Shown here: positions 13,765-19,399 of the stretch, piece after piece
Layout: every line of letters starts with the position of its first letter
Position numbering within the stretch: position 1 is the first letter of the stretch
The notes under the pieces: model-generated
Seen by the model: only the letters and a program-made list of their open reading frames with translations
Told to the model about the DNA's origin: nothing
Databases searched by the model: none
Origin: Lachnospiraceae bacterium
GTDB taxonomy: Bacteria > Bacillota > Clostridia > Lachnospirales > Lachnospiraceae
Length of the DNA: 64,000 nucleotides
Direction of reading: 5' to 3'
Assembly: GCA_014804645.1 (NCBI GenBank)
Contig: JAAUZI010000005.1
Span: 60,381-124,380 of the forward strand
Translations under genes and position numbers: made by a program

Positions 13765-14283
13765 ATGGAAATAGATTATAAAATCATGAAAATTGAAAGC
13801 GAAGAACAGAAATCCTCCTATGCAAGATCCGTCTTAGAGAGTCTGCCGGACTGGTTCGGCAATAAGGAATCGCTGGAGGAGTACGTGGAAAAGGTGCAGG
13901 AATTTCCATTCTGGGCCGCATTGGACGGAGAGGGAAAGTGTCTGGGGTTCTTTTCCGTGAGGATTCATTACGGACACACAGGAGATATATATGTCTGCGG
14001 CGTACATCCACAGTGCCACCGCATGGGAATCGGCAGGGCACTGTACGATGTAGCGGAACAGTATTTTTTGGAATGCGGCTGCAAGTACGCCATGGTGGAG
14101 ACCCTGAGCGATAAAGTGGCGTATGCCCCCTATGAGAAAACCAGAATGTTTTATGAGAGTGTGGGATTTGACCCGTTGATCACGCTGACGGAGATGTGGG
14201 ATGAGGACAATCCCTGCCTGATTATGGTAAAGTGCCTTGCTGAGTCTAAGGACGTACTGTGCAGAGAGGGTCATCGGCTATAA
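13765..14283 (+). CDS. GNAT family N-acetyltransferase
   Basis: IYVCGVHPQCHRMGIGRALYDVAEQYFLE...KTRMFYESVGFDPL. Confidence 0.88.
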   Translation: MEIDYKIMKIESEEQKSSYARSVLESLPDWFGNKESLEEYVEKVQEFPFWAALDGEGKCLGFFSVRIHYGHTGDIYVCGVHPQCHRMGIGRALYDVAEQYFLECGCKYAMVETLSDKVAYAPYEKTRMFYESVGFDPLITLTEMWDEDNPCLIMVKCLAESKDVLCREGHRL

Positions 14284-14298
14284 AAATTTTTTCTATAA

Positions 14299-14317
14299 AC
14301 CTATTGACATAGTAGGT
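14299..14317. promoter_or_regulatory. putative Rrf2/CymR-type operator
   Basis: ACCTATTGACATAGTAGGT: perfect 5-bp inverted repeat spaced by 9 nt, overlapping the -35. Confidence 0.55.
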
Positions 14318-14332
14318 AAATAGTGTTAATAT
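14304..14332 (+). promoter_or_regulatory. sigma-A-type promoter of the leader/metNIQ operon
   Basis: TTGACA-N17-TAATAT. Confidence 0.8.
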
Positions 14333-14378
14333 TGCCATATTCCGATCAGGAAAAGGATTTTGGCGAGAGGTAAAAGCG

Positions 14379-14492
14379 ATGGATATCAGAAACATAAATC
14401 TATATATGAACATGTGCTGTTGTCGAATGCATTTTTTGCGGATAGATGATATGGCCGAATGCATCGACTTTTCTTGTCGTGTGTTGGGATAA
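14379..14492 (+). CDS. putative cis-acting leader peptide MDIRNINLYMNMCCCRMHFLRIDDMAECIDFSCRVLG
   Basis: ATG preceded by GAGAGG at ~8 nt; three consecutive Cys codons at 14415..14423; lies between promoter and terminator-like hairpin upstream of metN. Absent from the ORF track (too short). Confidence 0.6.
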   Translation: MDIRNINLYMNMCCCRMHFLRIDDMAECIDFSCRVLG

Positions 14493-14526
14493 TGTCCTTA
14501 GGACGGAGGCGCAGTATATCATTTAT

Positions 14527-14554
14527 CCGGGATTTTAAGGAACCCGGTTTTTTT
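14527..14554 (+). terminator. putative attenuator terminator hairpin
   Basis: CCGGG(14527-14531)...CCCGG(14543-14547) followed by T7; alternative pairing TCCTTA(14495-14500)/TAAGGA(14536-14541) plus CGGA(14504-14507)/TCCG(14526-14529). Confidence 0.5.
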
Positions 14555-14618
14555 ATGCACAAATTTGCTGCATATGCCTTATCGCAGGCATTGGCAAGAA
14601 ATTCAGGGAGTATTGGAA

Positions 14619-15644
14619 ATGATTCGACTGAACAATATCAACAAAAGTTTTTCCGATCAGAGAAAAACCGTCAAAGCGTTACAGGATGTCTCCATCCATG
14701 TGGAGAAAGGTGACATATACGGCATAATCGGTTTTTCCGGCGCAGGAAAGTCCACTCTGATCCGTATGGTCAACCGCCTGGAGAAACCGGACAGCGGCAG
14801 CGTGACTGTGGACGGTCAGGAACTGACAAATCTATCCGGAGTGCAGCTGCGCAAAGTTCGGCGTAAAATCGGCATGGTATTCCAACAGTTCAATCTGTTG
14901 GAATCGAAGACGGTGTTTCAAAATGTGGCAATTCCGCTGATTCTTGAGGGAGCTGACAAGAGGCGGATTGCAAAACGTGTACAGGAGGTATTGCATTTTG
15001 TGGAGCTGGAGGATCGAAAAGATGCCTATGTCAACCAGCTTTCCGGCGGGCAGAAACAGAGGGTGGGAATTGCCAGAGCCCTAGCAACAGATCCGTCCAT
15101 TCTGCTGTGTGATGAGGCCACAAGCGCGTTGGATCCCAAGACTACAGAGTCTATTCTACACTTGCTGAAACGCATCAATCAGGAGATGGGAGTCACAATT
15201 TTGTTGATTACCCATCAGATGCAGGTGATTCAGATGATTTGTAATAAGGTGGCCGTCATGGAGGAGGGACGGATTGTGGAGCAGGGGGGAGTGATGGAGG
15301 TATTCAGCCATCCCAGAGCGCCGGTTACGCAGGAATTCGTCAGGACAGTCATTCGCGATCAAATTCCGGAGAGCATCGTAGAACTGTTGTATCAGGAACA
15401 GAGAAATTACCGGGTGGAGCGGCTGAAATTCGTCGGCAGCAGCGTCAAAAAGCCTGTGATATCTGAAATCTGTCATATAGATGGTATCGAGGTCAATATC
15501 CTTGGGGCGACGGTTCAGGAGCTGGAAGACAGCGTCATGTGTATCTTTATCCTGCAGCTTATAGGGGAGGAGAGTTCGCTGGAGACGGCGGAAGAGAAAA
15601 TAGATGCGGTGGGCGTCTTGCGGGAAAGAGTGGTGATTGACTGA
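14619..15644 (+). CDS. metN: methionine-type ABC transporter ATP-binding protein with NIL domain
   Basis: GFSGAGKSTLIRMVNRLEKPDSG, LSGGQKQRVGIARALATDPSILLCDEATSALDPKTT; C-terminal NIL-like region; start MIRLNNINKSF. Confidence 0.93.
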   Translation: MIRLNNINKSFSDQRKTVKALQDVSIHVEKGDIYGIIGFSGAGKSTLIRMVNRLEKPDSGSVTVDGQELTNLSGVQLRKVRRKIGMVFQQFNLLESKTVFQNVAIPLILEGADKRRIAKRVQEVLHFVELEDRKDAYVNQLSGGQKQRVGIARALATDPSILLCDEATSALDPKTTESILHLLKRINQEMGVTILLITHQMQVIQMICNKVAVMEEGRIVEQGGVMEVFSHPRAPVTQEFVRTVIRDQIPESIVELLYQEQRNYRVERLKFVGSSVKKPVISEICHIDGIEVNILGATVQELEDSVMCIFILQLIGEESSLETAEEKIDAVGVLRERVVID

Positions 15645-16324
15645 TGAAAGAATTCTTGGAACTGAAAATATTTAAAGTTTCTGTGGAGCGACTGCTCCTC
15701 AACGGAGGCCAGACCCTCTACATGGTGGGTTGTTCGTTGCTGATCGGTACAATAGTGGGTTTTCTGATGGCATTGGTATTGGTGTTGTGCCGGAAGGGCG
15801 GTTTGGTTGAAAATAAAATTTTATATCAGATTGTGAACTTTTATATCAATGTGGTGCGGAGTATCCCGTTTATTATCCTGCTTGTGACCATAATGCCGCT
15901 GACACGGGCAATTATGGGCACCACCATTGGCAGCAGGGCGGCGCTGGTTCCTCTGGTAGTCTATATCAGCCCCTATCTGGCCAGGCTTATGGAAAACAGT
16001 CTGCTGGAGGTTTCACCCGGAATCCTGGAGGCAGCGCAGGCAATGGGGGCGTCCAACTGGCAGGTGATACGCCATTTCCTAGTGCCGGAGACACTCGGGT
16101 CCATCGTCCTGGCATTGACAACCGGAACCATCGGTCTGCTGGGGGCATCCGCCATGGCGGGTTACTGCGGTGGCGGTGGCATCGGCGATCTGGCCCTGAC
16201 CTATGGATATGAGAAGATGAATACCCCCCTGATGGTCTTTACGGTGGTGATTTTGGTGATACTGGTGCAGCTGCTCCAGGTTGTGGGCAATCGACTCTCT
16301 CGGAGATTGCGGGAGCATCGGTAA
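15644..16324 (+). CDS. metI: methionine-type ABC transporter permease
   Basis: VVRSIPFIILLVTIMPLTRAIMGTTIGSRAALVPL; EAAQAMGASNWQVI. Confidence 0.93.
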   Translation: MKEFLELKIFKVSVERLLLNGGQTLYMVGCSLLIGTIVGFLMALVLVLCRKGGLVENKILYQIVNFYINVVRSIPFIILLVTIMPLTRAIMGTTIGSRAALVPLVVYISPYLARLMENSLLEVSPGILEAAQAMGASNWQVIRHFLVPETLGSIVLALTTGTIGLLGASAMAGYCGGGGIGDLALTYGYEKMNTPLMVFTVVILVILVQLLQVVGNRLSRRLREHR

Positions 16325-16361: not shown

Positions 16362-17198
16362 ATGAAAAGGATCTTGCAAACAATGTTGTTATTGTCAGTT
16401 TTTGCACTGTATCTGACAGCTTGCGGAAACACGGGGGCAGAAAGCCCGGCGGTCGGCGCGGCCTCTAAAACGGAGATTGTCTATGGCAAATCCCAGGGAC
16501 CTTACACGGAACTGTTTGAGGCAGCCATAGTCCCCATTCTGGAAAATCAGGGATATACTCTTAAGGGTGTGGATTTTTCTGATCTGCTGACAGCGGATAT
16601 AGCATTAAATGACGGTGAGGTAGACGTGAATGTGGAACAGCATACCGCATATGCGGAGAACTTTAACGCCAACAACAGCGGAGATTTGGTGCCTATCAGC
16701 CCTATTCCCACTGTTCCTGCCGGTATCTATTCTGCCACCCACAGTTCTCTGGAGGAAGTGGGGGAGGGAGCAAAAATCGCCGTTCCTAACGATGCCTCTA
16801 ACACAGCCCGCGCCTATGCTTTGCTGCAGAAGATCGGCTGGGTCAAACTAAACCCTGAGGTGGAACTTTCGGCAGTCACCCAGGATGACATCGTGGAGAA
16901 TCCTAAGAATTTAGAGTTTGTAGAAATGAAATCCCTTACGATTCCCGCCGCCATTCAGGATTTCGACTATGTGGTAATCACCGGCAGCATTGTATACAAT
17001 GCGGGAATCGATCCCTCCACAGCGTTGGCCACCGAAGACATTCAGGAGCATCTGGTTCTTCAGGTGGTGGTCAAAGAAGGCAACAAATCTACACCCTGGG
17101 CACAGGCCATCGTAGATGCTTACCATTCCAATGAATTTAAGGAGTATTTGGAGAAAAACAATGATGGACTGTGGTGGGTTCCGGAGGAATTACAATAA
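16362..17198 (+). CDS. metQ: MetQ/NlpA family substrate-binding lipoprotein
   Basis: Lipobox LTACGN; DGEVDVNVEQHTAY; VPNDASNTARA. Confidence 0.93.
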   Translation: MKRILQTMLLLSVFALYLTACGNTGAESPAVGAASKTEIVYGKSQGPYTELFEAAIVPILENQGYTLKGVDFSDLLTADIALNDGEVDVNVEQHTAYAENFNANNSGDLVPISPIPTVPAGIYSATHSSLEEVGEGAKIAVPNDASNTARAYALLQKIGWVKLNPEVELSAVTQDDIVENPKNLEFVEMKSLTIPAAIQDFDYVVITGSIVYNAGIDPSTALATEDIQEHLVLQVVVKEGNKSTPWAQAIVDAYHSNEFKEYLEKNNDGLWWVPEELQ

Positions 17199-17215: not shown

Positions 17216-17647
17216 TCATATAACATAATCGTTCCCGCACACATCATTCCGGGTCAGGTCTGCCAGAGTAATGTGGCCCAGATAATCCTGAATCAGTCTG
17301 TCAAGCCCCTGCCATACGGGCAAGGTACGGCAGATGGATACCCTGGGACAGACGGGTGCATCCTGCTCCAAGCAGGCAACCGGCGCAAGGGAGTCCTCTG
17401 TCAGCTGCAAGATGCTGAAAACCGTGTATTGGTCAGGGGTACGGGTTAGTCTATATCCACCTCCCTTTCCACGCAAGCCGCTTACAAACCGAGCTTTTAC
17501 CAGTAGCTTGATGATGCCCTCCAAATATTTTTCGGATATTTCCTGGCGCTGGGCGATCACTTTTAACGGAATAAAATCTTCGGATGGATGCTCCGCAAGA
17601 TCAATCATGACCCTTAATGCGTAGCGTCCTCTGGTAGAGATCAACAT
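17216..17647 (-). CDS. Rrf2 family transcriptional regulator (CymR/IscR-like)
   Basis: MLISTRGRYALRVMIDLAEH, ISEKYLEGIIKLLVKARFVSGLRGKGGGYRL. Confidence 0.93.
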   Translation of the reverse strand: MLISTRGRYALRVMIDLAEHPSEDFIPLKVIAQRQEISEKYLEGIIKLLVKARFVSGLRGKGGGYRLTRTPDQYTVFSILQLTEDSLAPVACLEQDAPVCPRVSICRTLPVWQGLDRLIQDYLGHITLADLTRNDVCGNDYVI

Positions 17648-18330: not shown

Positions 18331-18352
18331 AAAAATGCCAGGAGGAATACCA

Positions 18353-19399
18353 GTGATTGAGTTTATTCATGTTTCTAAGGATTTTGGAAAAGGACAGCAG
18401 GAGGTACATGCAGTCAAAGATGTCTCCTTTACCATCGAAAAGGGGGAGATATTCGGCATCATAGGGTTTTCGGGAGCCGGAAAATCAACCCTTGTCCGAT
18501 GTATCAATTTATTGGAAAGGCCCACGGCCGGGTCCGTCATAGTGGATGGACAGCAGATGACAGAGCTTTCTGCCAGACAGCTCCGCCACGCCAGAAAAAA
18601 GATCGGTATGATTTTCCAGCATTTTAACCTGATGCCGTCTCGGACTGTCTTTGGCAATGTGGCCTATCCCCTGAAAGGAAGTGGTCTGAAATCTCAGGAG
18701 ATAGCGGATAAGGTTCGTGAACTGCTGGAACTGGTGGGCATAGGGGATAAGGCAAATGCGTATCCCAGCCAGCTCTCCGGTGGTCAGAAACAGCGAGTGG
18801 CTATTGCCCGTGCCCTTGCCAATGACCCCAGCGTTTTGCTATGCGATGAGGCGACTTCCGCTTTGGACCCTCAGACTACCAAGTCCATTCTGCAGCTTTT
18901 AAAGCAGCTAAATGAAAAACTGGGGATCACAGTAGTTATTATCACACACGAAATGGCTGTAATAAAAGAGATTTGCGACAGAGTTGCAGTGATGGAACAT
19001 GGGCGGGTAGTGGAGCAGGGGGAAGTGTTTTCCATCTTTGCCTCTCCCCGGCAGGACATCACACAAAATTTTATCCGCACCACATCCAGTCTCAGAAAGA
19101 TAGACGAATTGGTGGCGGCAGATTCTCCCGTCATTGCCCTTAAGGCCGGGGAGGTGATCGTCAGACTGTCCTACATACAACGGAATGTCTCAGAGCCGTT
19201 GATCTCCACTGTGTCACAGAAGTTTCATGTCACGATGAATATTATTTTTGCGGATATCGAGATTGTGCAGGGCGCCCCGGTAGGCGGGACGGTGGCAATT
19301 ATCAGCGGAGAGCCGCGGCAGATCGAAGGGACAATGGAATATCTGCGGGAAAAAAATGTGTGCGTGGAGGTGATAAAAGATGCAAGAGTTTCTGAATAA
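18353..19399 (+). CDS. metN: methionine-type ABC transporter ATP-binding protein with NIL domain (second copy)
   Basis: GFSGAGKSTLVRCINLLERPTAGSV, LSGGQKQRVAIARALANDPSVLLCDEATSALDPQTT; GTG start after AGGAGG. Confidence 0.92.
   Translation: MIEFIHVSKDFGKGQQEVHAVKDVSFTIEKGEIFGIIGFSGAGKSTLVRCINLLERPTAGSVIVDGQQMTELSARQLRHARKKIGMIFQHFNLMPSRTVFGNVAYPLKGSGLKSQEIADKVRELLELVGIGDKANAYPSQLSGGQKQRVAIARALANDPSVLLCDEATSALDPQTTKSILQLLKQLNEKLGITVVIITHEMAVIKEICDRVAVMEHGRVVEQGEVFSIFASPRQDITQNFIRTTSSLRKIDELVAADSPVIALKAGEVIVRLSYIQRNVSEPLISTVSQKFHVTMNIIFADIEIVQGAPVGGTVAIISGEPRQIEGTMEYLREKNVCVEVIKDARVSE

Follow-up and report, generated by a model that had tools for sequence, protein, structure and literature searches.

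Ribosome-mediated transcription attenuation has been described in Firmicutes for the his leader of bacilli (PMC2965389) and, in two further reports, for ilv leaders in Listeria (PMC5864092) and Staphylococcus aureus (PMC5794164). Attenuators of the trp/his/ilv type combine a leader ORF, control codons and mutually exclusive antiterminator and intrinsic terminator structures, and the cysteine leaders presented here share this plan. In design they differ by their predicted control by cysteine, by an antiterminator arm located within the ORF, some 25–60 nt ahead of its stop codon, and by an Rrf2-type operator. The uORFC-8-2 motif, which is found ahead of cysS in Rhodobacterales and is predicted to sense Cys-tRNA, likewise combines a leader ORF that contains Cys codons with an intrinsic terminator (PMC8632094). 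However, that motif belongs to Alphaproteobacteria, carries two tandem Cys codons and precedes only cysS, whereas the clostridial element is found at operons for uptake and for synthesis and, judged by the published description, arranges its helices differently (PMC8632094). With metN as its downstream gene and with relatives in Clostridia, our leader falls outside uORFC-8-2. Short poly-Cys leader ORFs also stand ahead of cysteine genes in Actinobacteria (PMC1262725; PMC13236596, citing Canestrari 2020), but these are described as leaderless, devoid of conserved terminators and active on translation. The leader examined here instead has a Shine-Dalgarno sequence, a promoter ∼50 nt 5′ of its ATG and an intrinsic terminator. 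Finally, a Cys-specific T-box in Clostridium attenuates transcription according to Cys-tRNA charging before the same kinds of genes, but a T-box recognizes the tRNA by direct binding and lacks a leader ORF (PMC2940859).

The window, by which we mean the whole 64,000-nt stretch of Lachnospiraceae DNA that was analyzed, contains no Rfam match at gathering score, T-box and SAM (S-box) riboswitches included. Near positions 14250–14650, allowing E values up to 5, only three unrelated chance Rfam matches appear. Similarly, the leader peptides match no NCBIfam family, and a search of the open-access literature, with subscription papers outside its coverage, returned no report of a Cys leader-peptide attenuator in Firmicutes. 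We therefore regard the cysteine leaders as a new family of an established type, the ribosome-mediated attenuators. In Clostridia the T-box is the described RNA sensor of Cys-tRNA, and a leader-peptide attenuator would represent a second solution.

A preliminary description of the locus had proposed that transcription of a Met/Cys importer in a Firmicute is attenuated through a leader peptide whose control codons are those of Cys. The comparisons reported below speak in favor of that proposal, in a genome of the Lachnospiraceae type. Its reading of the promoter, the GAGAGG element, the 37-codon ORF, the Met-Cys-Cys-Cys run and the terminator with seven T residues before metN was confirmed directly from the sequence. 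On the forward strand, an operator-like box, CCTATTGACATAGTAGG (14300–14316), with the inverted repeat CCTA...TAGG, overlaps the −35 element of the promoter TTGACA-N17-TAATAT (14304–14332; −35 at 14304–14309, −10 at 14327–14332). The box recurs in relatives, whose promoters are arranged alike. A GAGAGG Shine-Dalgarno sequence (14365–14370) lies 8 nt ahead of the ATG at 14379, which opens a leader ORF of 37 codons (14379–14492) encoding MDIRNINLYMNMCCCRMHFLRIDDMAECIDFSCRVLG. Within this ORF is the control-codon block Met-Cys-Cys-Cys-Arg(CGA)-Met (14412–14429), whose Cys codons, TGC TGT TGT, occupy 14415–14423. The intrinsic terminator (14527–14554) pairs CCGGG (14527–14531) with CCCGG (14543–14547) and ends in T7 (14548–14554); it is evident from sequence and folding, and relatives carry terminators as well. 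Three genes follow, each assigned by domain and family profile matches: metN, encoding an ABC ATPase with a NIL domain (14619–15644), the permease gene metI (15644–16324) and metQ, encoding an NlpA-family lipoprotein (16362–17198).

When 138 genomes belonging to the genus were searched with the peptide, orthologues of the metN leader were recovered in two species, G104 (73% identity) and G135 (64%). In both, the ORF before metN has the same length and stop position as in the window and carries the identical CCC run. In other relatives it is the promoter region, and not the ORF, that recurs in a DNA search, and several such places carry leaders with an MCCCRM core before other genes. The pattern ATGTGYTGYTGBMGNATG matches 36 times in 31 of the 138 genus genomes and never when reversed, so the leaders recur beyond chance, with a true leader count below 36 as the TGG-variant matches are mostly chance frames inside genes. 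Two sets of candidates were set aside: matches to the W variant MCCWRM (AGG-ATG), most of which are chance frames within other genes, and enterobacterial MCCCRMPTA matches (such as those in Ewingella and Morganella), which arise by chance when an amino-acid ABC permease-like gene is read in a different frame.

A motif scan of public and family genomes, many of them MAGs, yielded about fifty leaders with an intrinsic terminator on their 3′ side, nearly all behind a common promoter box. Because the first alignment was picked by the MCCCRM pattern, invariance at those columns is uninformative by itself, and loci were therefore also chosen by the promoter box alone. Terminators were placed by alignment, as a simple hairpin finder misplaced them in the window and a few other loci. 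Among the distinct operator sites that were read, 28 of 104 were assigned by eye to the leader type, and 25 of these 28 leaders have at least two Cys residues in a cluster; Cys makes up 12% of residues overall. The cluster, just 5′ of the antiterminator helix P1, usually reads MCCCRM or MCCRM, with MCCCCM, MCMCMCRM and MCWCCRM as further forms, and its Arg codon is CGA in all 19 leaders with CRM. Residues 5′ of the cluster are unconserved. The frame of the peptide tail after MCCCRM shifts by one base between lineages while P1 stays constant, and hence conservation extends to the Cys cluster and to pairing of the RNA but not to the peptide tail. Many leaders (L124, L146, L329 and L332 among them) end in Arg-Cys-stop (CGATGTTGA), such that Cys is the last sense codon.

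The genes that follow the leaders are metY, metB, cysK, genes for NlpA/MetQ-type and other substrate-binding lipoproteins, an M20 peptidase gene, and metNIQ. An RNA model built from 47 leaders gives strong matches in four or more further families of the Clostridia, in several cases together with the same operator. In one genus outside Lachnospiraceae, seven genomes were matched, most with two or three leaders that lie mostly behind the same box and precede NlpA-type lipoprotein, metY and metB-like genes; Faecalibacterium prausnitzii CNCM I 4541 has a leader of this design as well. The predicted attenuator thus occurs at operons for both uptake and synthesis, in Lachnospiraceae of the gut, in Faecalibacterium and in further families of the Clostridia. 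The model gives one significant match in the window (14412–14566, 86.6 bits), whose sequence was part of the training set. This covariance model is provided for annotation, and the small ORFs named here are of a kind that annotation pipelines overlook.

The RNA pairings of the leader were examined by folding and alignment. P1 joins an antiterminator segment within the ORF, just 3′ of the Cys codons (CGGATAGATGATAT, 14439–14452), to ATATCATTTATCCG (14516–14529), which overlaps the 5′ arm of the terminator. In the window, its 5′ arm begins 15 nt past the final Cys codon; in most relatives the distance is ∼10 nt, which places the arm just beyond the expected front edge of a stalled ribosome. In the family, the ORF segment is typically CTCCCGGGCA...ATGGC, which pairs with GCCAT.TGCCCGGGAG, the latter including the terminator 5′ arm. 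The overlap covers three of the five terminator pairs in the window and is larger in relatives. Nested in P1 is the P2 hairpin (14455–14488; −13.9 kcal/mol), and a covarying hairpin occupies the equivalent place in the family. All 12 P1 pairs form in each of the three metN leaders, which have CGGATA/TATCCG where most leaders have CGGGCA/TGCCCG; they encode residues unlike those of SRA-type leaders, with the pairing kept. Across 47 leaders, 92.7% of cells at the 19 P1 and P2 pairs are paired, and changes on both sides occur at 13 of the 19 pairs (57 cells). When one side is slid against the other as a control, pairing drops to 28–50%.

A third pairing, P0, would involve the control codons themselves. 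In the window its 5′ arm, GTCGAATGCA (14422–14431), can pair with TGCATCGAC (14460–14468), a segment common to the 5′ side of P2; in the family, the third-Cys/Arg/Met codons UGUCGAAUGC face GCGUUCGA or GCAUUCG on that side. The mean P0 duplex energy over the 47 leaders is −9.7 kcal/mol, compared with −6.0 kcal/mol for shuffled sequences, and the metN leaders pair at 9/9, 9/9 and 8/9 positions. P0 is unpopulated in equilibrium ensemble folding of the window. We regard it as a candidate protector only, one that may form in the leader and whose pairing would explain the fixed CGA codon.

CymR, a protein of the Rrf2 family, represses the cysteine regulon in Bacillus and Staphylococcus. Downstream of metQ, on the reverse strand, the window carries an Rrf2-family repressor gene (17216–17647; Pfam PF02082), a candidate reader of the operator. 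Its product exceeds the cut-off for the Rrf2 superfamily (120.5 versus 73.3), but at 90.9 bits falls short of the 195 set for the CymR equivalog (NCBIfam NF047409), and it is also below the NCBIfam cut-off for the IscR equivalog. What the locus would share with the CymR regulon is the logic of an Rrf2-type repressor over cysteine genes. A second metN-like gene (18335–19399), 0.7 kb past the Rrf2 gene, has no copy of the leader or operator.

The operator consensus ACCTATTGACANNNTAGG occurs at 108 sites in 85 of 397 family genomes, as opposed to 4 for the reversed control, and a similar box precedes nearly all leaders. These sites lie before metY, cysK, genes for nifS-type cysteine desulfurases, rrf2, gshA (glutamate-cysteine ligase) and transporter genes, a set that is, by its gene content, a predicted regulon of the cysteine/Fe-S type. 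In the genome from which the window derives, operator-like sites at two to three mismatches are no more frequent than in the reversed control, and no Cys leaders were present at those that were read. A Rrf2 repressor acting at the leader promoter probably adds a second layer of control; such two-layer regulation of cysteine/methionine supply by operator and attenuator, in bacteria that are abundant in the gut, is open to direct test. In genome G536, an operator lies directly 5′ of a MetN-like gene with no leader, and a second operator ∼1.7 kb on is followed by an MCCRM leader and then the gene for a lipoprotein, an arrangement that suggests placement of the attenuator on different regulon genes in different lineages. 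The −35 operator shared with the cysteine regulon, the Rrf2 gene, P2, the pairing of CGA-ATG and the occurrence at many operons were all absent from the preliminary description.

Taken from its anatomy and conservation, the element very likely attenuates transcription by a ribosome-mediated mechanism in which Cys-tRNA reports on the supply of cysteine. With ample cysteine, an Rrf2/CymR-like protein probably represses the promoter. When charged Cys-tRNA is scarce, a ribosome would stall on the Met-Cys-Cys-Cys block with its leading edge at about 14427–14434, short of 14439, leaving the arm 14439–14452 free. That arm would then pair with 14516–14529 around P2 and take up the terminator 5′ arm, permitting readthrough into metNIQ. 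With ample cysteine, the ribosome would advance over 14439–14475, P1 would come too late and the terminator (14527–14554) would end the transcript. In a leader that is not translated, P0, formed by the Cys-Arg-Met codons and the 5′ side of P2, may have a protective role. Ensemble folding of the window with no ribosome gives probabilities of 0.88 for P1 and 0.63 for the terminator, which partly coexist. Constrained folding with a ribosome stalled at the third Cys codon changes these values to 0.96 and 0.22, and a ribosome placed on 14417–14475 brings the terminator probability to 0.99. In the folding model, P1 is not blocked by a ribosome that has halted on the stop codon. Since P1 is also favored when no ribosome is present, the off state would need kinetic coupling of translation to transcription, and this reliance on translation keeping pace is the weakest step of the modeled mechanism.

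The placement of the antiterminator arm bears on how the ribosome might act. The preliminary description had paired TCCTTA (14495–14500) with TAAGGA (14536–14541), together with CGGA/TCCG, as an antiterminator that a ribosome sitting on the leader stop codon would block. The complementarity is indeed present, with 10 of 10 pairs in the window and a duplex energy of −13.3 kcal/mol, but it is weaker than P1 (−20.1 kcal/mol), has an ensemble probability of ∼0, keeps only 8/10 and 6/10 pairs in the two orthologous metN leaders, and has no counterpart in the alignment of the wider leader family. Stem covariation is found in P1 and P2, and the pairing proposed earlier is not conserved. The conserved antiterminator begins inside the ORF, so that a translating ribosome would cover or melt its arm instead of acting from the stop codon, and we give the stop-codon arrangement almost no credence. 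A nascent peptide could alternatively be the sensor: when a ligand such as cysteine or another thiol is present, the MCCCRM chain would itself arrest the ribosome, and a shortage of charged Cys-tRNA at Cys codons would not be the cause. Arg-Met is conserved after the Cys run, and most leaders selected by operator have a Met ahead of the cluster, as an arrest peptide might require, yet the cluster varies among MCCCCM, MCMCM, MWCRM and MCMRMCCCC, more latitude than an arrest peptide of defined sequence would usually allow. The lack of conservation 5′ of the cluster also argues against arrest, and the invariant CGA codon points to RNA pairing (P0) rather than to the residue. Arrest is accordingly improbable, though the least so of the competing accounts weighed here.

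The leader might also be dispensable to regulation. About three-quarters of operator sites have no such leader, many lying directly before a gene, and the Rrf2-type operator could in principle be the sole regulator, with the leader ORF and hairpins an incidental 5′ UTR. P1/P2 covariation, the Cys clusters and the presence of a terminator in each leader make this account very improbable. Still less plausible, despite the conserved CCCRM core, is that the product of the ORF is a small Cys-rich protein with a function of its own. The leaders differ greatly in length and tail, their reading frame changes past the core, Trp or Met can replace Cys at single positions, and the absence of NCBIfam matches to the leader peptides also counts against this account. 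Within the preferred reading of a Cys-tRNA attenuator, Met codons that flank or alternate with Cys (MCMCMCRM, MMMCCRM, MCMRMCCCC) might themselves be control codons. The leader would then integrate the charging of Cys and Met tRNAs under the Rrf2 repressor and replace the Cys T-box regulon-wide, an extension that we consider speculative and somewhat doubtful.

Other Cys-containing leaders were noticed in the course of the survey. A second leader type, with the conserved peptide (L/V)xRxN(F/Y)RxGRM(CCC), precedes metY at L350, L352, L353, L358 and L360, and also at L248, L276, L285 and L304. At several of these loci the promoter box is the one described above or resembles it, and the leaders have no obvious CCCGGG antiterminator. 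As this type is conserved at the residue level, it may be an arrest peptide. In uncultured Actinomycetota, an MCCCRMTSR ORF stands shortly before a metY-like gene (L111), and a near-identical ORF occurs at a locus whose sequence ends before the gene (L132). Micrococcaceae-type Actinobacteria (L082, L096, L167, L174, L175 and L179) carry MCCCRM-x-x ORFs before a gene whose product starts MS(I/V)(A/S)(P/S)GYVHIS, and in most of them UCGAAUGC in the ORF is complementary to GCAUUCGA downstream.
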